Source of the DNA: Aquiluna sp. | GTDB taxonomy: Bacteria; Actinomycetota; Actinomycetes; Actinomycetales; Microbacteriaceae | Reading direction: 5' to 3' | NCBI GenBank assembly: GCA_017854485.1 | Contig: JAFMHN010000004.1 | Location: forward strand, 1 to 64,000 | DNA: 64,000 bases | Part shown: positions 32,052-42,992 of the stretch, one piece after another | How positions within the stretch are numbered: the first letter of the stretch is position 1 | Layout of the letters: each line of letters opens with the position of its first letter | The notes under the pieces: generated by a model | Told to the model about the DNA's origin: nothing | What the model saw: only the letters and a program-made list of their open reading frames with translations | The model's database searches: none | Program-made: the position numbers and the translations under genes

Positions 32052-32498
32052 CTAGCGACCAGCGAACAGAGCAAGCGTGAATTGGCCACCGCCCGGCATC
32101 ACCTTTGCCGAGTATTCAACTCCTGGAGAGAGCCTGCCAAGGCGATCAATTAGCCAGTCAGCTGCCCGGTTGGCATCAGCTTCATCAGAGAATCTGGCTA
32201 CTGTTTCGCGTCCACCCTTGCGGGCAAGTCTTTCGGCACTTTCAAAAATTGGAGCAGGGTCTCCCGCCAATAGCTCCGCCGGCCAGGCAATTACTGGAGC
32301 GTGCTTCCCCTTCATTGTGTTGCAAGAGCGGTGAGCTAGCCGCTCTGGGGCTGCCGCTCCCTTTTTTGCCTTTGCGGCAGCGTAGGTGTCAACGCTTGGT
32401 CCAAGGTCTGAGTTCACCGAAGCATCAGGGTCTACCGGCTGATCACATAGCCAACAGCGCCAGTTGTCCTTGGTGCCTACTTCATCCAAATTGCTCAT
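32052..32498 (-). CDS. HNH-like zinc-finger protein
   Basis: WRCWLCDQPVDPDAS... RLAHRSCNTMKGK: CxxC...HxxCN arrangement. Confidence 0.65.
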   Translation of the reverse strand: MSNLDEVGTKDNWRCWLCDQPVDPDASVNSDLGPSVDTYAAAKAKKGAAAPERLAHRSCNTMKGKHAPVIAWPAELLAGDPAPIFESAERLARKGGRETVARFSDEADANRAADWLIDRLGRLSPGVEYSAKVMPGGGQFTLALFAGR

Positions 32499-32516: not shown

Positions 32517-33176
32517 TTAGCCAAGCCGATAGCCCATTCCGCGAACAGTTTGAATTGAGTCATTGCCAAGCTTTTGGCGAAGGTATCGGATGTAAACATC
32601 GACAACGTTAGAACCCGGATCGTGGTCAAAGCCCCAGACCCTAGAGAGGATCTGCTCGCGTGACAAAACTTGGCCAGCATGCCTCAGGAAGAACTCGAGC
32701 ATCGTGAATTCTCTTGCCGTTAGGTCATGGTCGATGCCGGCAGCGCTCACCCGGCGGGTTCTAAGGTCAAGCACAATGTCTTTGTGAGAAAGGGTGGTTT
32801 CGGTCACAACTTCACCAGGGGTTGAAATCCGACGGCGAACCCTTGCCAACAACTCTTCAAAGGAAAATGGCTTTGACATGTAGTCATCCGCGCCGCCCTC
32901 AAAGCTTGCAACGGTGTTGTCAACGCTGTCTCTGGCTGTAAGGACGATTACCGGGACCTCATTGCCAGAACCCCGCAGTTGCTCCAGCACCGCAAAGCCG
33001 TCAATGCCCGGCAGGCCAATGTCCAAGATAACCAGATCAAATTCTGCTGCGGCAGAGAGTTTTAGGGCGTCCTCGCCATTGGGTGTGTAGGTGACCTGAT
33101 AGCCATGGGACTGCAAGCCCTTGACTATGAACGATGCAATCCGCTCAGAGTCTTCAACAACCAGAATATTTGACAT
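32517..33176 (-). CDS. OmpR-family response regulator
   Basis: ILVVEDSERIASFIVKGLQ, DLVILDIGLPGIDG, C-terminal wHTH DLTAREFTMLEFFLRHAGQVLSREQILSRVWGFDHDPGSNVVDVYIRYLRQKLG. Confidence 0.95.
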   Translation of the reverse strand: MSNILVVEDSERIASFIVKGLQSHGYQVTYTPNGEDALKLSAAAEFDLVILDIGLPGIDGFAVLEQLRGSGNEVPVIVLTARDSVDNTVASFEGGADDYMSKPFSFEELLARVRRRISTPGEVVTETTLSHKDIVLDLRTRRVSAAGIDHDLTAREFTMLEFFLRHAGQVLSREQILSRVWGFDHDPGSNVVDVYIRYLRQKLGNDSIQTVRGMGYRLG

Positions 33177-33179
33177 AAG

Positions 33180-34574
33180 TTACCTCGGTAGCCTCAAGGC
33201 TACTTTGGCCCCACCAAATTCAGAGTCACCAATCACTAGCTTTCCACCGTGACCTACAGCAATCGCACTTACCAGCGCCAGACCGAGGCCAGCGCCCTGC
33301 CCAGAATTAGCTTGTGCTTCACCCCTCACGAAACGCTCTGTGATGCGGTCGCGACTGGCTTCCGGGATGCCCGGGCCAGAATCAGAAACAGAAACCTCAA
33401 CGCCCTTGCCCACGAGCTGGATGTCGATTCGGATTGGGTCACCGTCAGAGGTGAACCGAACAGCGTTTTCGCTTATCTGCAGGGTGGCTTGAGTGATTCG
33501 CTCTCGATCAAGAGACCAGGATGCATCGGGAATCTCTCCAAGTGACCAGTCTCTATTTGCAAGCTGGCTTGCCTTAACAAATAGCTCATCGCCCAAATCG
33601 ACCAAGCGGATCTCAGTGCGCTTTACGAAATCTGGCTGGGATGACTTCGTGAGGGTTTGCAGATCCCGAACGATCCGGCTCATCCGGGACAGCTCGTCTT
33701 TCACGATCAGCATCGAACTATCGGCTTGGCTTGGGTCAGCCTCCATGAGCTCCAAGTGACCGGAGATGATGGTCAAGGGAGTTCTGAGCTCATGGCCAGC
33801 ATCATCAACAAACTGCTTGTTGATTTCAAAGGACTCTTGAATTCGGTCCAGCATTAAGTTGAATTCTGCTGCCAACTGCTTTAGCTCTGTGCCTCCGGAG
33901 GTTTCTGCTATTCGCTTGGTGAGGTCACTGGCACCGATTTCGTGCGCAGTCTGTCGAACGTTTGTGATTGGCCTGAGCACTCTGCCAGCTACCAACCAGC
34001 CCACTGCAGCAGCAGCAATTAGCGACAGCAGCACAATCAGAGCAAATCGGTAAAGCAGATTGGTGATTTGCTGCGACTCAACATCGCTGAAAATTACTCC
34101 AATCAGTGCTCCGCGCTCTGCTTGACCAGTTATCGGAACGACGATGTATCGCGCATTACCAACAGCCGTTGGATAGTTTCCAAAGCCCGCTTTGGTCACT
34201 CTGGAAACGAGCTCGAGAAACTCCGGGTCTTGATCTAACCGGACTGGCGGGGTGTCTGTGGTTCTAGAAATTACCGCGCCATTGACCATCACAAACATGG
34301 TCTCATTTGGGTCCGGAACAGTCCTTTGAATATAGAGCTCAAGCAGCCCCCTGGCTGAGGTGAAGTTCGTGTCCGTGTTCGGGTCAATAGCTCTTTCGGC
34401 CAGCACCTGCAGCTCTTCGGCCTCTCTCCCGAGGTGCCCGTCAATGGACTGATTCTGTTGGGTGGTTAGCATCGACCAGGCAGTAACTAGGGTTAGCGAC
34501 AGCACCATCACCACCGGCACCAGCACCCAAGCTAAAAGCCTTACCCGGCTTGACTGAAGCAAATCTTTCAGCAT
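33180..34574 (-). CDS. Sensor histidine kinase with HAMP domain
   Basis: FVDDAGHELRTPLTIISGHLELM H-box; VSDSGPGIPEASRDRITERFVRG; GAGLGLALVSAIA. Confidence 0.95.
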   Translation of the reverse strand: MLKDLLQSSRVRLLAWVLVPVVMVLSLTLVTAWSMLTTQQNQSIDGHLGREAEELQVLAERAIDPNTDTNFTSARGLLELYIQRTVPDPNETMFVMVNGAVISRTTDTPPVRLDQDPEFLELVSRVTKAGFGNYPTAVGNARYIVVPITGQAERGALIGVIFSDVESQQITNLLYRFALIVLLSLIAAAAVGWLVAGRVLRPITNVRQTAHEIGASDLTKRIAETSGGTELKQLAAEFNLMLDRIQESFEINKQFVDDAGHELRTPLTIISGHLELMEADPSQADSSMLIVKDELSRMSRIVRDLQTLTKSSQPDFVKRTEIRLVDLGDELFVKASQLANRDWSLGEIPDASWSLDRERITQATLQISENAVRFTSDGDPIRIDIQLVGKGVEVSVSDSGPGIPEASRDRITERFVRGEAQANSGQGAGLGLALVSAIAVGHGGKLVIGDSEFGGAKVALRLPR

Positions 34575-35104
34575 CAGTTGGTCACCTTGTAGAAGAAGTC
34601 TTCATGAACAAGCTTCCCCTCTTCGCCAAGGAGCGGAAGGTCCAGGTCCAGCTCGAAAACGCCATCCCCATCATCAAGGTAAAGAGCAGCCTGCAAATCC
34701 TGGCTCCGAGTTAACGGAATCTCCAGAAGAAGGGTTACCGGCTGACTTTGAGGTGTCACAAGGGTTTCTGCAATCACCAAGCCGGAGGTGTCATAGATCA
34801 CCAGGAAGGCATTAGCGCGGCCTACTTTGATCTCGTCAATGTCCAGCGAGGTGCCGTCACCCTCTTGATCTTCAATGTCCACTTCGGCACTTGGGTCATT
34901 GGCATATTCCTGGCCAGCTGGATCAAAGGTTTTGGTTGGTGCTGGAGCTGGGTTATCACCGAGACTGATCGCATCGAAATTCTCAAAATCCTTGGCGGGA
35001 GCACTTGAGCAGCCGTTCAGTGTCAGCGTGGCCAATAGAAAAGCTAACAGGATCGCACTCTTATATGTTCGGCTTTTCATGTTCCTATTGGACAAAACTG
35101 TCAT
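34574..35104 (-). CDS. Lipoprotein with DUF7282-like domain
   Basis: Lipobox LTLNGCSS; IKVGRANAFLVIYDTSGLVIAETLVTPQSQPVTLLLEIPLTRSQDLQAALYLDDGDGVFELDLDLPL. Confidence 0.65.
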   Translation of the reverse strand: MTVLSNRNMKSRTYKSAILLAFLLATLTLNGCSSAPAKDFENFDAISLGDNPAPAPTKTFDPAGQEYANDPSAEVDIEDQEGDGTSLDIDEIKVGRANAFLVIYDTSGLVIAETLVTPQSQPVTLLLEIPLTRSQDLQAALYLDDGDGVFELDLDLPLLGEEGKLVHEDFFYKVTN

Positions 35105-35112
35105 GAGGCTGA

Positions 35113-35143
35113 GGTTAGCCGCAAATTAGATTTTTCTCACATT
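35113..35143 (+). promoter_or_regulatory. Candidate operator copy 1 (GGTTAG-N6-ATTAG... element)
   Basis: GGTTAGCCGCAAATTAGATTTTTCTCACATT matches 24/31 positions with 38775..38805; TTAG half-sites spaced 11 bp; in the divergent lipoprotein/flavocytochrome intergenic region. Confidence 0.55.
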
Positions 35144-35190
35144 GGCTCCTTTCCCAGCGAAGCAGCAGGCCGCTCCCCCAGAATAGTCAC

Positions 35191-36591
35191 GTGGCTAAAA
35201 ATACAGATTCAGTTGTGATTCTGGGCTCCGGCAAACTGCTTGGCCTTCAACGCAGACAAGATGGTGTCGAGATGCTCGGCATACTCGCGATCCTGATCCC
35301 CATCATCGCGTTCTTGATCAATGGTGGACTGGCGGCGGCCAACGATTTGGCCAGCTGGTTCAATGCCTTCAATCGCCTGACGGCACTTGTTGGAACCTCT
35401 TTGCTTTTGATTCACATGATCCTTGTTGCCCGAGTCCCTTGGCTTGAAAAAATACTTGGGCTCGACAAACTCACCCATGCTCACAAAAAACTTGGGAAGC
35501 CGTTGCTCTACCTGCTCATTGTTCACACCATCACAGCACTAATTAGCTACTCGATCTCAGATGGTGTGGGAGTACTAACAACGCTGCTGAACCTGATCGG
35601 CGGTTACGCCGATTTGCTGCTGGCATTCATCGGCTTACTGCTCATGATTTTGGTAGTTGTGTCGTCAATCAGGGCCGCCAGGCGCAAGCTCAGCTATGAA
35701 GCCTGGTATCTAATCCACTTGCTCTCATACATCTCAATCTTTGTGGCAATCCCCCACCAATTTTCTTTAGGGACTGAGTTGTTGGCTGAGCCATTGCTGG
35801 CGACCTACTTCATCGCACTATATGTGTTTGTTGGCCTAAACATTGTTTGGTTCCGCTTTCTGTTTCCAGTAGTTCAGTCGCTGGCCCTGTCCTTGAGAGT
35901 TGAATCCGTGAGACCGGAGGCAAACCGAACCACTTCGATAGTGATCGGAGGAAAGCGAGTGGAGAGCCTGGGAGCTGAGGCCGGCCAATTCTTCATGCTG
36001 AGAGTTCTAACCGCTAAGCAGTGGTGGCGTCCTCACCCATTCTCGGTCAGCGCCTTCCCGAGCAACACAATCAGATTCACCGTTGGTAACCGTGGCGATG
36101 ACACTTCCCTGCTTCAAGAAATTCAACCCGGAACCCGAGTGGTCCTGGAAGGACCATTTGGTGTCTTCAGTGAGTCGAAGCGAACCAAACAGCATGTGCT
36201 GCTGCTGGCTGCTGGAATTGGAGTTGCTCCGATTCGCGCGCTGGCTGAGAGCCTGGCTTCCGACCCGGGAGATGTGACAGTGGTCTACCGAGTAACAGAC
36301 AGGTCTGATGCCTCGCTCCTTGATGAGGTCGAAAGAATCTGTCGCGAGCGAAACCACGCGCTGCATGTTCTGGATGGCCCCAGGCCTAACGGCCCAGGCT
36401 TCCTTCCTAAGCAGCAGGCCGGGGAGCAAATAGCACCTGAGTACGCACGACTGCTTGCCTTGGCTCCGTTCGCAGCCGAGTCTGACATTTACATTTGTGG
36501 CCCTAGTGCCTGGTCCAACGCCGCAGTTCAGGCATTGAAAAAGCTCAATGTGCCAAAAGCGAGCATTCACGTAGAGGAGTTTGCCTGGTGA
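35191..36591 (+). CDS. Ferric-reductase-like transmembrane flavocytochrome (ferredoxin reductase family)
   Basis: TM domain with His residues (LLIHMILVAR, HAHKKLGKPLLYLLIVHTIT, WYLIHLLSYISIFVAIPHQF); C-terminal HPFSVSAFPSN, LAAGIGVAPIRALAESL. Confidence 0.9.
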   Translation: MAKNTDSVVILGSGKLLGLQRRQDGVEMLGILAILIPIIAFLINGGLAAANDLASWFNAFNRLTALVGTSLLLIHMILVARVPWLEKILGLDKLTHAHKKLGKPLLYLLIVHTITALISYSISDGVGVLTTLLNLIGGYADLLLAFIGLLLMILVVVSSIRAARRKLSYEAWYLIHLLSYISIFVAIPHQFSLGTELLAEPLLATYFIALYVFVGLNIVWFRFLFPVVQSLALSLRVESVRPEANRTTSIVIGGKRVESLGAEAGQFFMLRVLTAKQWWRPHPFSVSAFPSNTIRFTVGNRGDDTSLLQEIQPGTRVVLEGPFGVFSESKRTKQHVLLLAAGIGVAPIRALAESLASDPGDVTVVYRVTDRSDASLLDEVERICRERNHALHVLDGPRPNGPGFLPKQQAGEQIAPEYARLLALAPFAAESDIYICGPSAWSNAAVQALKKLNVPKASIHVEEFAW

Positions 36592-37163
36592 GAAAATCAA
36601 CCCTGATGGTTACATCGCTGGTTGCAGCCAGTGCACTTACCGTGGCCTGGAACACCGGCCAGCAAACGCTGAATAACGAGATTCTGCTACTGCCCACAGA
36701 CAACGCTTCGCCTGCAGTTACCGACGCAGCCACGACTGATCCCGGCGCAACTGCCACCGCTGAACCCACGGCACCAGCAACAGACCCTGCAGCAACCGAC
36801 CCGGCACCAACTCAAGGCGCACCTCAGACCCCCACTGCCACACCCACCCAGACTCCAACAAAGACGCCCACCACGCCTGCAGCACCGGTAGCGCCTCCGG
36901 CGCCTGTCACGGCGACAAAGAGTTCGGACCCGATTACCTATAAGTACGGAACAGTCCAGATTTCAATGACCACCGTTGACGGCGCCATTACTGAAATCAA
37001 GATGCTTCAGGGAGATGCAACCAATGGACGCGGTGAGGCATACGCAACGCTGATAAACGCGACTATTCAAAACCAGGGAACAAACTACGGAAACATTTCT
37101 GGAGCCACGTTCACGGTGGACGCCTTCAAGAAAGCGGTCGATAACGTTATGGCTAAGTTCTAA
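36588..37163 (+). CDS. FMN-binding domain protein with Pro/Thr-rich linker
   Basis: Signal/TM N-terminus, PTATPTQTPTKTPTTP linker, NISGATFTVDAFKKAVDNVMAKF with an SGAT flavinylation-type motif. Confidence 0.88.
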   Translation: MRKSTLMVTSLVAASALTVAWNTGQQTLNNEILLLPTDNASPAVTDAATTDPGATATAEPTAPATDPAATDPAPTQGAPQTPTATPTQTPTKTPTTPAAPVAPPAPVTATKSSDPITYKYGTVQISMTTVDGAITEIKMLQGDATNGRGEAYATLINATIQNQGTNYGNISGATFTVDAFKKAVDNVMAKF

Positions 37164-37939
37164 ACAGTAGCTAGCACCGCGGCAAAGCCGGCGGTCGCAA
37201 CAAAACTCAGATCTGCGGCTGTCACCAACGCAACAGCATCAGCTGATGAAACATTTTCACCGAACAGCTTTAGCGCTTCGGCACCACCACTTATCAAGGC
37301 GGTTGCCCAAATGTCAGCAACCACTAGGTCTTTGGCAACCACTGTTGCCTGGATGTAATCGGAACTGTCAGCAGCTCGCCAAATGTGTTCACCGCGCTCC
37401 GAACGACCACTGGTGGCAACGGCGCGAAACTTAGACCCGGCAAGATCCAAAACCATGTTTGAACCGGCAGCTTCATCCGCCACTGAACGCAGGTTGGATA
37501 ACCCCACTTTGTTCAACAGCGGTGAGGTCAAATCCTGGCTCAAGTAGATGTCGCCACCGGCATTCAAGGTGAATTGACGAACGCCATTTGCTTCCAGATA
37601 TTGAGCTGCATTTCTAGCTGCCCAGGATTTCACTAGACCGGATGGGTCGTAGGTGCCATCAGGTGAAACGGGGTCGAAGAAGCCGCCAGTGATTGCTTTC
37701 CAGTCCGTTGCATCTGCCCGGATTTTGCGCTGAACACTGCTGGCCGAATCCCATGATGCAGCACCTGAGTTCAGCTGACTGATTTCAGATTCCGGCTTAT
37801 AAAGACTGAAAGTCTCATCAGCGTCCCGCAGCACATCCATGGCTCCACCACAAAAACGAGAAAGCTCGTCATCGGAAATGTTGTCATCGACCTGAAACAG
37901 GAACACCGTTCCCATGCATTCGGCTGAGTAGCTAAACAC
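37160..37939 (-). CDS. apbE: FAD:protein FMN transferase (ApbE family)
   Basis: SAECMGTVFLFQVDD, ETFSLYKPESEISQLN, FDPVSPDGTYDPSGLVKSWAARNAAQYL, FTLNAGGDIYLS. Confidence 0.9.
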   Translation of the reverse strand: MFSYSAECMGTVFLFQVDDNISDDELSRFCGGAMDVLRDADETFSLYKPESEISQLNSGAASWDSASSVQRKIRADATDWKAITGGFFDPVSPDGTYDPSGLVKSWAARNAAQYLEANGVRQFTLNAGGDIYLSQDLTSPLLNKVGLSNLRSVADEAAGSNMVLDLAGSKFRAVATSGRSERGEHIWRAADSSDYIQATVVAKDLVVADIWATALISGGAEALKLFGENVSSADAVALVTAADLSFVATAGFAAVLATV

Positions 37940-37952
37940 TTAGTTTGAGTCT

Positions 37953-38729
37953 TTAGTCGTCGTCGTGATCTTCGTCGTGGTCGTCGTGGTGATCATCGTC
38001 GTGGTCGTCATCGTGGTCCTCGTAGTGATCGTCATCGTGGTCATCAGAGTAGCTCTTCGAGGACGCGCCAGAGCCAGAAGCGGTGGGAGTAGGGCTCGAA
38101 GTGTTGCCTGAGGCACTGCTTGAGGTGGCGGGAGTCGTTGCCGAGGTTCCATAGCCACCAGTGGCGGCAGCGGTCGTGCCACCCGATCCTGCAGTAGGAG
38201 TCGGGCTAGAGACAGAACCTGCGGAAGAAATTGGCTCCAGTGGGACGCTTGCGCTGGCAGGAGATGGAGAACTGGAAGGCGTGGTCGCTGGAGTGCTAGT
38301 AGGAGCTGGAGAACTGGACGGCGTGGTCGCTGGAGTGCTAGTAGGAGCCGGTGCAGCGGCAATCGCGGTTGGCAATGGGTCACCCAGTGCGTGAGTCTCG
38401 ATTGTTACTGTGCCAGCGGCCTGGCCAGCTGCAGCGCTATTGCTTGTCACAGTTGGAACGCTCACGCCGGTGGCGTCAGTAGTCTGAGCAGCGGCACCTG
38501 CAGCTGTCTGACTAGGTGCGCTAGCCGGGGTCTGATCTGCGGCGGGAGTAGACGCCAGTCCAAAGGCAGAGCCAACGGCTGCGGTCTCCTGCACGACAAA
38601 GGCTCCAACGCTAGGCATCGCAATGGAAATCGCGGTTGCAACGGAACCAACCGCAATTACAGTCGACCCGATTCGGGACATGGCACTGGGCTTGCGGTTA
38701 TCAAACTCGTATCGCTTATTTGTCATCAT
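37953..38729 (-). CDS. Membrane-anchored/secreted Ser/Thr/Pro-rich protein with Asp/His-rich C-terminal tail
   Basis: N-terminal hydrophobic segment; repeats PAPTSTPATTPSSS; tail SDDHDDDHYEDHDDDHDDDHHDDHDEDHDDD. The overlapping minus-frame ORF 37940..38383 is an alternative reading frame. Confidence 0.8.
   Translation of the reverse strand: MMTNKRYEFDNRKPSAMSRIGSTVIAVGSVATAISIAMPSVGAFVVQETAAVGSAFGLASTPAADQTPASAPSQTAAGAAAQTTDATGVSVPTVTSNSAAAGQAAGTVTIETHALGDPLPTAIAAAPAPTSTPATTPSSSPAPTSTPATTPSSSPSPASASVPLEPISSAGSVSSPTPTAGSGGTTAAATGGYGTSATTPATSSSASGNTSSPTPTASGSGASSKSYSDDHDDDHYEDHDDDHDDDHHDDHDEDHDDD
38266..38349. repeat. Two tandem 42-bp units encoding PAPTSTPATTPSSS-type repeats
   Basis: ggagaactggaaggcgtggtcgctggagtgctagtaggagct then ggagaactggacggcgtggtcgctggagtgctagtaggagcc (2 differences). 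Confidence 0.92.
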
Positions 38730-38774: not shown

Positions 38775-38805
38775 GGTTAGAGGAAGATTAGATTTCTCTC
38801 ATGTT
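38775..38805 (+). promoter_or_regulatory. Candidate operator copy 2
   Basis: GGTTAGAGGAAGATTAGATTTCTCTCATGTT, upstream of the Asp/His-tailed protein gene (minus strand) and overlapping the 3' end of the DUF2231 CDS. Confidence 0.5.
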
Positions 38806-39285
38806 CGAGTGTTGATCAACCTGGACCGCGCTGGCATTGCTCCAAACCGCTTCTGCTCCTGAGTGTCCAACCACGAAGGTCATTGCGCTTGCGCCGATAG
38901 CAGCGGCTACAGCGAGGAACCCAATAACACCGGTTAGCCTTTTGGACCAACCGGAGCGAATTGCAAACCAAAACAAGACCGCAATGGCTGCTGTTGCTAA
39001 AGCAACAGGCACCATCTTTTCTCCGAATTCCTCATGCAGATCCGGCTCATAGGTTGCTTCACCGAGCGCTTCACCAGACTGCTGAGCGATGAAGACGAAT
39101 GGGATAGTCAGAACCAGCCCCAAAGTTGAAATGCCGAGGTAGCGCTTGCGGAAGCTTGGCCACATCGCTGCCAGTGCAACTAAGAGTGCGGTTACCGGAA
39201 ACAGGACAACAGCAAAGTGCACTGCCAATGGATGCAGTGGCAGATCGCCAAAATACAAAAAGAACTCTTCCAACTTGCTAACCAA
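38788..39285 (-). CDS. DUF2231-like membrane protein
   Basis: GDLPLHPLAVHFAVVLFPVTALLVALAAMWPSFRKRYLG; four hydrophobic segments. Confidence 0.82.
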   Translation of the reverse strand: MVSKLEEFFLYFGDLPLHPLAVHFAVVLFPVTALLVALAAMWPSFRKRYLGISTLGLVLTIPFVFIAQQSGEALGEATYEPDLHEEFGEKMVPVALATAAIAVLFWFAIRSGWSKRLTGVIGFLAVAAAIGASAMTFVVGHSGAEAVWSNASAVQVDQHSNMREI

Positions 39286-39371: not shown

Positions 39372-39406
39372 AACAAAAACACCCGGCAGTTGCCTGCCGG
39401 GTGTTT
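39372..39406 (-). terminator. Intrinsic terminator downstream of the heliorhodopsin gene
   Basis: AAACACCCGGCAG-GCAA-CTGCCGGGTGTTT perfect 13-bp stem on the minus strand followed by TTGTTTTC. Confidence 0.9.
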
Positions 39407-39421
39407 GTGTGTGTGACTTTT

Positions 39422-40225
39422 CTAGCTAACCAAAGCCGGAATGATTGCTCCGGAGAATACCTGCCATGCCAAAACCGTCTTAGCAACCAGGCTAAGGGTG
39501 ATGTAGGTGGACTCACCAAATAGGTAGTTCTTCCAAGGCCCAATCTGCTTGTACTGGAAGGCCTGGTTGAAACCGAAGGTGTTGAAGAACAGAAACAGCG
39601 CAACAACAATTCCATAGACAAAGCCTGGGATGTCGGATGCGTTGGTCGCCCCTGGCTGCCAGATGTAGAGAACAAGAATCAACCAAGGCACGATTCCGGT
39701 CATTGAACCGAAAATAAACGGAAGGCCCTTGCCGTTACCAGGAGTTTCGTACTTCTCCTGAAGGGCACCGAACAGGATCATCGACGCGTTCACGGCAAAA
39801 ATTGCGACTAGCGCCGCGATGTCGGTAATTCCGTTTAGCAGGGCGATGCAGAAAATCATCACTGATGAGCTCAGTGAGTACTCAACCCAACGGAAGTAGT
39901 TGTGGTTGAGCTTCAGGCCCCCCTTATAGCGCTCGAAGAACATTGGGGAAGAAATGATGAAGTGGAACAGCGCAGATAGCGCCAAGAATCCAACGATTCC
40001 GGCACCGATGTTTACATCAAACAGGGTTACTACGTCCGCGGGGCTGTTTACTCCCGGAGGGCCGGTTGGGTACTCAATTTTTACTGGGAACAAAATTTGG
40101 TAGTCGAGCAGTGTCAAAACATATGAGAACCCAATCGCCTGGACTAGGTGCAGGAAGCCGGCAACTACGTTGTAGCGCCTCAGTCTTGCGATGTACTCAT
40201 CTGGAGTTCTGGTTTTCTTGGCCAT
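39422..40225 (-). CDS. Heliorhodopsin
   Basis: 7-TM, 267 aa. LRRYNVVAGFLHLVQAIGF (H26), LSALFHFIISSPMFFERYKGGLKLNHNYFRWVEYSLSSSVM (H88, E115), GESTYITLSLVAKTVLAWQVFSG (S245, K249). These correspond to H23, H80, E107, S237 and K241 of prototype 48C12. Confidence 0.94.
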   Translation of the reverse strand: MAKKTRTPDEYIARLRRYNVVAGFLHLVQAIGFSYVLTLLDYQILFPVKIEYPTGPPGVNSPADVVTLFDVNIGAGIVGFLALSALFHFIISSPMFFERYKGGLKLNHNYFRWVEYSLSSSVMIFCIALLNGITDIAALVAIFAVNASMILFGALQEKYETPGNGKGLPFIFGSMTGIVPWLILVLYIWQPGATNASDIPGFVYGIVVALFLFFNTFGFNQAFQYKQIGPWKNYLFGESTYITLSLVAKTVLAWQVFSGAIIPALVS

Positions 40226-40256
40226 GATTAGCCCTTTCAGATTTATTACTAAAAGC

Positions 40257-42818
40257 CTAGGCCTGAATGTGACTTCGCTCTAGCTTGGCACCCTCAACGT
40301 CAACATCCGGCAAGAGTCGATCTAGCCACTGCGGAATCCACCAGGCGGACTTTCCGAGCAGGGTCATCACCGCTGGCATCAGCAGCAACCTCACCAAGAA
40401 GGCATCAATTAGCACGCCCATCGCTAGGCCAAAGCCCATTGGCTTCATGATCGCAAGGTGCGAGAAGGCAAAGCCACCGAACACAGCAATCATGATGATT
40501 GCTGCGGCCACGACCACGGCGCGACCTAGGTGCATGCCGTAGTTGATGGACTCGTTTGCCGACTTCCCGTGCACATAGGCTTCGCGCATTCCGGAGACCA
40601 AGAACAACTGGTAGTCCATGGCCAACCCAAAAGTAATTCCGATCAGGATGGTCGGAAGGAAGCTGAGTAGTGGACCGGCTTGATAAACACCGAATAGGTC
40701 AGCCAGCCAACCCCACTGATAAACGGCGACAACTGCACCAAGGGTTGCAAACACGGTTAGCAAAAAGCCGCCGGTAGCAATCAGTGGCACCAGCAAAGAC
40801 CTGAACACGACAATCAACAGCACCAGCGACAGCAGAATTACGGTTCCCAGGTAGAGCGGCAGAACGTCGGCAAGTTTTTTGGACATGTCGATGTTGATGG
40901 CCGCGATGCCGGTGACTTCCATGCTCACCGAAAGGCTCTGCTCGAGCTCGGCACCGAGGTCGCGAATGTCAAACACCAGCTGCTCGGTTGATTCACTGGT
41001 TGGTCCATCTTCGGGAATTACAGCAAACATCAACTCAGTTCCGGATTCACTGACTCCAGCAGGCAGCACGCTGGCAACCGATGCCAGCGAACTAAGCTCT
41101 GTGGCAAGTGTTGCTTGCAGCTCCAACTGCTCTAGATCTTCAAGCGATTCTGGCAACTGAGCGATAGCAACCAGGTTACCGTTAGCCCCAGCCCCAAAGC
41201 TGTCGGCGATCAGGTTGTAGGACTTGTTGGCAGTTGAATCTGGCGACTCGGATCCACCATCAGGCAGCGCAAGTCGAAGACTCGATGCCGGGATTGCCAA
41301 AATGCCAAGTGCTGCGATGACTGAAACCATCACCAAAATAGGGTGTCGATTTGCAAGCACTGGTCTGGTTGAGGCAGTGTTTTCAACCGGGCTAGCGTCC
41401 TGGCTCGCCCCGAGTTCCTGCAACTTTGCGCGTTCAGACTTGGTAAGCACACGCATACCCGCCAGCCCCAGTACAGCCGGGACCAGGCTCAGTGCGACCA
41501 GCACCGCGACCACGATCGACAGCGCACCGGCACTACCCATCAGACCCAGAAATCCCACCCCGGTTAGATTCAGCGCCAGCAGCGCAATTATTACGGTCAC
41601 TCCGGCAAACACCACTGCGTTTCCGCTGGTTCCGTTGGCAAGACCAATCGACTTGTGAAGCTCGATCCCAGACTTCAGCTGACGACGGTGACGATTGAGA
41701 ATGAACAGCGAATAGTCAATCCCAACGGCAAGCCCGAGCATGATGCCAAGTAGCGGTGTGGTGCTGGTCATTTCAATGACCGAAGACAGCGCGAAGGTGA
41801 TTGCCGCTGAAATGGCAACACCGGCAATCGCAGCAATGACCGGAAGACCCGCACCAATGAAGGTTCGTAGCATCACAATCAACACCAGTGCCGCAACAAG
41901 CAAACCGATTACTTCGCCAATGCCCAGCAGGCCATCAAGCGAGAAAACTAGTGACTGCGAAAACTCAACCTGGACCGAGCTCGGGGTTAGATCTTTGATT
42001 AGTGAAACCAGAGAGCCGGCAAGAGCCTCATCAATCTCACTGATTTGAACATCGAAGTAGATATTTGCAAGCGCGGTTAGCCCGTCGCTGGAGACGATTC
42101 CAAAACCTGATGCGGCATCAAGCAGGGCGGCTCCGGAATCTAAAGAGCGCTGGGCAAGCAGCGCTTCAGTTTTTCCGGCATCGAGCGCGTCTTGAGCGGC
42201 TGCAAGCTGTTCTTCGGCTACCTGGATTTGTGCAAGGCCTGCCTGAACTTCAAAAAGGTTTGCCTGCAATTGGTCAACCCCGGGTAATCCGGCAGCGCTT
42301 ACTTGGTCGATCCCAGCCAAAACCGCTTGCTCCTGCTCAACCAGGAATGCTTTGTTGTCGGCGAGTTCAGCAAGTGCTTCATCAATCGAGTCCTGCCCAG
42401 CTACCAGGTCAAGCTGACCTTGCGCTAAATCCTTGGCCCCTTGCGCTAGGTCTGCTCGCTGCTTATCAAGAGATGCTTGGGCGTCAAATGGATCAAGCGC
42501 TTGATTGACACCGGAAATCTGCTGAACCGCAGCTAGCAGAGCGGCAATCTCAGCTCTTTCTTGATCTGTGAACGGGACCGAGTCCGCCTTGTGGAAGACC
42601 GCTTGACCGACGCCGCGCCCGGCATCTGGGAAAGTTTCCTGCAGCTGATAGACCAGGTCCTGTGACGGGATGCCATCCAAGGTCACACTCGAGCTGAGTT
42701 TTCCGCCAGCAAATACTGCGGCTGCCCCCGAGCCCAAAATCGCAATTAACCAGATAGAGATAACTAGAAGTGCTTTTCGGGCAGAAAATTTTCCTAGGCG
42801 GTAGAGCAGCTCGGCCAT
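40257..42818 (-). CDS. MMPL/RND-family transporter with extracytoplasmic coiled-coil insertion
   Basis: GIMLGLAVGIDYSLFILNRHR and GITFGLAMDYQLFLVSGMREAY paired SSD-like motifs; KQRADLAQGAKDLAQGQLDLVAGQ helical segment. ATG at 42818 preferred to GTG at 42842. Confidence 0.92.
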   Translation of the reverse strand: MAELLYRLGKFSARKALLVISIWLIAILGSGAAAVFAGGKLSSSVTLDGIPSQDLVYQLQETFPDAGRGVGQAVFHKADSVPFTDQERAEIAALLAAVQQISGVNQALDPFDAQASLDKQRADLAQGAKDLAQGQLDLVAGQDSIDEALAELADNKAFLVEQEQAVLAGIDQVSAAGLPGVDQLQANLFEVQAGLAQIQVAEEQLAAAQDALDAGKTEALLAQRSLDSGAALLDAASGFGIVSSDGLTALANIYFDVQISEIDEALAGSLVSLIKDLTPSSVQVEFSQSLVFSLDGLLGIGEVIGLLVAALVLIVMLRTFIGAGLPVIAAIAGVAISAAITFALSSVIEMTSTTPLLGIMLGLAVGIDYSLFILNRHRRQLKSGIELHKSIGLANGTSGNAVVFAGVTVIIALLALNLTGVGFLGLMGSAGALSIVVAVLVALSLVPAVLGLAGMRVLTKSERAKLQELGASQDASPVENTASTRPVLANRHPILVMVSVIAALGILAIPASSLRLALPDGGSESPDSTANKSYNLIADSFGAGANGNLVAIAQLPESLEDLEQLELQATLATELSSLASVASVLPAGVSESGTELMFAVIPEDGPTSESTEQLVFDIRDLGAELEQSLSVSMEVTGIAAINIDMSKKLADVLPLYLGTVILLSLVLLIVVFRSLLVPLIATGGFLLTVFATLGAVVAVYQWGWLADLFGVYQAGPLLSFLPTILIGITFGLAMDYQLFLVSGMREAYVHGKSANESINYGMHLGRAVVVAAAIIMIAVFGGFAFSHLAIMKPMGFGLAMGVLIDAFLVRLLLMPAVMTLLGKSAWWIPQWLDRLLPDVDVEGAKLERSHIQA

Positions 42819-42992
42819 GTGTTCCAATTCAAATCGTGGCACGCCGTGCCTAGGTGAGAGTTTTGCTAATGCTACGAGAGCTCGCTGGGTGCCAGCTGAG
42901 ATTCAGGTTGCGCTCTATGACAACCATGTTTGGGCTCGCAATCATTCCCAGCTTCGCTAACCTTTGACTAGCAACTGAGACAAGGAGCTGCG

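Follow-up and report, generated by a model that had tools for sequence, protein, structure and literature searches.

We analysed a 64,000-nucleotide stretch of DNA (the window), contig C16 of a 1.22-Mb genome that is 96% complete. We assign the host, a small aquatic actinobacterium, to Aquiluna (Luna-1, Microbacteriaceae) on the strength of its nearest named HeRs and of the kinship labels given by the genome search. An earlier note, made from the letters of the window, had placed in it a gene for a 267-residue heliorhodopsin (HeR for short), with genes for an MMPL exporter, a DUF2231 protein and redox proteins as neighbours. The features of the locus are collected in Table 1. The HeR gene lies on the minus strand, which carries the 267-codon open reading frame; the plus strand across the same positions is crowded with stop codons.

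The heliorhodopsin and its relatives

It is virtually certain that the product belongs to the heliorhodopsin family. A family profile search, which the earlier note had proposed as a check, matched Pfam PF18761 over residues 15-260 with 315 bits (E 3.9e-94; cut-off 26.7) and NCBIfam NF038020 with 334 bits (cut-off 100), and the crystal structure of heliorhodopsin 48C12 (PDB 6su3) was matched with 272 bits (E 4.6e-80). The E values of the Pfam and PDB matches exclude a chance match. The window HeR and 48C12 are identical at 136 of 250 aligned positions (54%), and 48C12 (PDB 6su3, 6uh3 and 9ljj) shares with it the seven-transmembrane fold, the SxxxK motif of transmembrane helix 7 (TM7) and WVEYSLSSS in TM3. 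The window protein has a longer N-terminus, and five more residues either within the first extracellular loop or ahead of it.

Both the retinal-binding motif of TM7 (S245/K249) and the TM3 glutamate counterion, E115, are present. An alignment of 94 HeRs bore out the pairing of H26, H88, E115, S245 and K249 with H23, H80, E107, S237 and K241 of 48C12 that the earlier note had given, as well as its constant offset of +8 past the first extracellular loop; ahead of the loop the offset is +3. These five residues are invariant in the alignment, as are N109, R112, W113, Y116 and E157.

Structure prediction, also proposed earlier, gave an AlphaFold2 model (from 23 sequences; predicted local distance difference test score 82, predicted template modelling score 0.81) with helices as for a seven-transmembrane protein and a beta-hairpin, strands 45-52 and 64-72, in the first extracellular loop. 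There are six lysines or arginines in the N-terminus, four, two and two in the cytoplasmic loops and one, none and none in the extracellular loops. This distribution fits the inverted, N-in topology that had been read from the basic N-terminus.

Our genus comparison covered 23 Aquiluna genomes, the window genome included, of which several are incomplete, and statements about whole genomes rest on targeted searches plus stretches of sequence. HeR is present in 21 of the 23, and 20 encode a type-1 rhodopsin. Among named HeRs, those closest to the window protein come from Aquiluna; that of Candidatus Aquiluna sp. IMCC13023 is 90% identical. As HeR together with actinorhodopsin has been published for Luna-1 bacteria, with HeR in Aquiluna among them (PMC12422013), the mere presence of the gene is not new; the window HeR is an ordinary, well-conserved heliorhodopsin, a new member of a known family.

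In the HeR tree the window protein sits among its Aquiluna relatives, with the actinobacterial HeRs of the 48C12 type. The Aquiluna HeRs stay together, with one Rhodoluna-labelled contig inside, so a recent horizontal gain from outside is unsupported and the gene seems to have been inherited largely vertically within the genus. Compared with three close Aquiluna relatives, the HeR gene has a nonsynonymous divergence (dN) of 0.05-0.06 and a synonymous divergence (dS) of about 0.8-0.9, a dN/dS of roughly 0.06. Against the same relatives the dN of neighbouring genes is 0.23-0.32 (about 0.31 for MMPL, 0.23 for HrpA). HeR is thus far more constrained than the genes next to it, and is under purifying selection.

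Several Aquiluna relatives carry a second, distant HeR, which the window genome lacks. This second HeR was found in nine of the 23 genomes (L107-L115) and is 36-38% identical to the window HeR and 39-40% to 48C12. Its locus in L139, L141 and L143 has LysE-type and peroxiredoxin genes, joined in L139 and L141 by a probable catalase-peroxidase gene, and in L143 it also lies near an apparent crt cluster (all genes named by eye from sequence). The window genome has a crt/peroxiredoxin locus (L116) from which the second HeR is absent. On L041, a contig labelled Acidobacteria, there is a HeR 65% identical to that of the window; as it clusters with Microbacteriaceae HeRs in the tree, misbinning or transfer probably explains it.

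Table 1. Features of the heliorhodopsin locus, with positions in the window
Feature	Position	Strand	Remarks
MMPL/RND-type exporter gene	40257..42842	minus	upstream of HeR; PF03176 213 bits, remote MmpL3 similarity in PDB
MMPL-HeR gap, 31 bp	40226..40256	minus	Shine-Dalgarno-like GAAAGGG; 34 bp in relatives
Heliorhodopsin (HeR) gene	39422..40225	minus	267 aa; retinal lysine K249, counterion E115
Intrinsic terminator after HeR (predicted)	39377..39406	minus	13-bp stem, T-rich tail
DUF2231 membrane protein	38788..39285	minus	PF09990 33 bits; past the HeR terminator
Ferric-reductase-like (+), FMN_bind (+) and ApbE (-) genes	35191..37939		PF01794, PF04205, PF02424; flavin redox cluster

Pairing with an MMPL exporter gene

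The 31-bp gap, the gene order and the hairpin behind HeR suggest that the two genes probably share a transcript, which HeR closes. The hairpin was the best of ten terminator candidates, the whole scan giving 10 compared with 8.4 in shuffled sequence, and similar hairpins stand 3' of HeR in most of the relatives inspected. MMPL and HeR are adjacent in seven Aquiluna genomes (the window genome, G002, G013, G017, G018 and G020, and G019 across a contig end), and in G005 the MMPL gene is one gene away. In IMCC13023 and sister Aquiluna, whose HeRs are 90-91% identical to that of the window, the upstream order DUF1801-MMPL-HeR is the same as in the window, and a DUF305 or regulator-like gene takes the 3' place that DUF2231 has in the window. 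No paper describing heliorhodopsin together with MMPL was found in the literature searched, and the pairing seems to be unreported.

The genus also shows each gene by itself. Twelve genomes have HeR without this MMPL, and G001 and G008 have MMPL without HeR. G014 retains only a 32-codon C-terminal remnant of MMPL, with an internal stop, directly upstream of an intact HeR gene (L128 8997-9092, minus strand); its HeR is 91% identical to the window protein and falls inside the MMPL-HeR clade of the tree. In G014, therefore, HeR is independent of MMPL. As several genomes are incomplete, single absences are weaker evidence than this remnant. Together, the remnant and the pattern of presence and absence rule out MMPL as an obligate partner, and leave it a candidate partner in some species.

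Two HeRs with known partners provide a comparison. For AbHeR the partner is glutamine synthetase (PMC9529153); OcHeR of Ornithinimicrobium is reported to modulate the ABC exporter OmrDE (PMC11109279). The window HeR stands between the MMPL/RND exporter gene and DUF2231, and has neither a glutamine synthetase gene nor an ABC exporter gene as its neighbour. The third cytoplasmic loop of the window HeR is QYKQIGPWKNYLFGES and that of the glutamine-synthetase type is QYKKVGKWSDYLRGER, the latter being identified by way of the residue numbering of PMC9529153 and of freshwater rows. AbHeR K216 is kept as K226, the only one retained of the loop lysines K216, K217 and K220, whereas K217, K220, R226 and R229 correspond to Q227, P230, F236 and S239; 48C12 has the arginines of an RGER motif where the window has F236 and S239. 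Every Aquiluna HeR of the window type has lost the arginine at 236. Many of them have also lost the basic residue at 239, but it is a lysine in five MMPL-HeR relatives, G014 and G006. These replacements suggest a changed contact surface on the loop, and glutamine synthetase is unlikely to be the partner.

Could HeR be a light-driven modulator of the adjacent exporter, as OcHeR is of OmrDE? Beyond that precedent, the adjacency has been kept, at 31-34 bp where measured, despite MMPL proteins diverged to 63-65% and synonymous sites near saturation, and HeR's downstream side varies among relatives while its MMPL junction rarely does. However, other upstream genes (DUF1801, ALDH and HrpA) are about as syntenic, so that the whole block is conserved and not the MMPL-HeR junction alone, and the genomes in which either gene occurs without the other, G014 with its lost MMPL body above all, also speak against it. 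We consider such modulation unlikely. The more specific version, in which HeR would in part of Aquiluna be a light-operated regulator of an MMPL/RND exporter of the proton-driven class, touching it through a rebuilt third cytoplasmic loop, is a little less likely again.

Retinal supply

The earlier note had seen no retinal or carotenoid gene in the window and had concluded that retinal must come from elsewhere, proposing a search of the whole genome for crt genes, blh and a second rhodopsin. A profile search for blh (PF15461) found none in the window genome. This search at first matched no control genome and was rerun genus-wide, where six of the 23 Aquiluna genomes had blh above the family cut-off and served as a positive control. 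No RPE65-type oxygenase (PF03055) was found in the window genome either; two control genomes matched. The statement about retinal thus holds for the genome, while that about carotenoids is confined to the window: contig C8 carries crtB in a cluster of the order crtB-crtI-two small lycopene-cyclase subunits-UbiA prenyltransferase. This order is the layout of C50-carotenoid clusters, and the C8 genes look like a cluster of that type. For Luna-1 bacteria a carotenoid cluster with crtEb has been described, a C50 product proposed and blh reported to be of low prevalence (PMC12422013).

The second rhodopsin was found: the genome encodes a type-1 rhodopsin with a D-T-E triad in RYVDWFLTVPLLLVE. With two opsins and no known retinal-forming enzyme found, the most likely source of retinal for the window HeR is scavenging, probably from the surroundings.

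The same negative searches could mean that HeR is in practice an apo-opsin, mostly without chromophore and with a light-independent role, and the retinal auxotrophy of Rhodoluna lacicola, as cited in PMC12422013, points the same way. This too seems improbable, since all residues of the retinal pocket that were tested are invariant in the 94 HeRs, selection on the gene is strong, and there are type-1 rhodopsins that bind exogenous retinal rapidly, again as cited in PMC12422013.

Genes downstream of HeR

Because a terminator follows HeR, the DUF2231 and redox genes are probably separate units. The closest homologues of the DUF2231 gene are on other contigs than HeR (G014, G003) or about 10 kb away (G011), and the looser proximity in several genomes, within about 1-11 kb of HeR, reads as a shared chromosomal region. 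The intervening terminator and the lack of adjacency in the closest relatives rule out DUF2231 as an operon partner. The redox cluster, sparse and distant in relatives, is likewise ruled out as a functional neighbour: its ferric-reductase-like gene occurs in six of the 23 genomes and in G006 is 124 kb from HeR. The neighbourhood drawn in the earlier note is mostly coincidental: of its genes MMPL alone is likely to be co-transcribed with HeR, and the genes beyond the terminator are not kept beside it in relatives.

A larger cluster at 32517-37939 encodes a response regulator, a histidine kinase, a DUF7282-like lipoprotein, the ferric-reductase-like flavoprotein, the FMN-binding protein and ApbE. 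It resembles a flavinylated extracytoplasmic electron-transfer system, and its order recurs in G011 (L133). Between it and DUF2231, at 37953-38729 on the minus strand, is a gene for a 258-residue low-complexity, secreted-looking protein with a His/Asp-rich tail, DDHDDDHYEDHDDDHDDD, and no Pfam match; it lies beside the redox genes and may bind metal. On the far side, at 32052-32498 (minus strand), a 148-residue protein also without a Pfam match has a CxxC and an H-x3-C-like pattern (NWRCWLCD...HRSCNTMKG), and many Aquiluna genomes have a homologue (cluster c3) no more than about 8 kb from HeR.

Heliorhodopsins have been linked to histidine kinases and oxidative-stress genes (PMC8612252), and in G011 the two-component and redox cluster is about 2.5 kb from HeR. 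It could be proposed from this that HeR signals to the response regulator and kinase at 32517-34574 and the redox genes, giving light-controlled envelope redox chemistry. The distribution of the ferric-reductase-like gene, its distance in G006 and the terminator that separates the two units in the window all argue against this, and make the proposal quite unlikely. That HeR uses light to transport protons, in the manner of the viral V2HeR3, is very improbable, as bacterial HeRs are stated not to pump ions (PMC11109279) and the window HeR groups in the tree with actinobacterial HeRs of the 48C12 type.

Discussion

The reading we favour, with some confidence, is that the window encodes a genuine heliorhodopsin that probably acts as a signalling photoreceptor, would use scavenged retinal and is encoded at the end of a probable MMPL-HeR transcript. 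The N-in opsin would bind all-trans retinal from outside at K249, and E115 would be the counterion. It would absorb green light and pass through a slow photocycle with no net pumping of ions, and its cytoplasmic loops would relay the change in shape to a partner protein. The type-1 actinorhodopsin of the same cell would be responsible for energy conversion. The partner need not be the neighbouring MMPL protein and is probably not glutamine synthetase.

Some points weigh against this picture. A blh gene may lie in an assembly gap, since the genome is 96% complete. The tree was built from HeR and is not a species tree. The proportion of synonymous differences in HeR, 0.48-0.53, is below the 0.66-0.79 of its neighbours, and this low divergence could reflect codon constraint or gene exchange.

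The function of heliorhodopsins is still debated, and Aquiluna offers a natural experiment: among close species there are some with HeR and MMPL, one type in which MMPL has been deleted beside HeR, and others with MMPL and no HeR. The genus also pairs retinal makers with apparent retinal auxotrophs. As genome editing has been reported for two freshwater relatives, the actinobacteria Rhodoluna lacicola and Aurantimicrobium photophilum (PMC11577799), the hypotheses about both the partner and the cofactor are testable.
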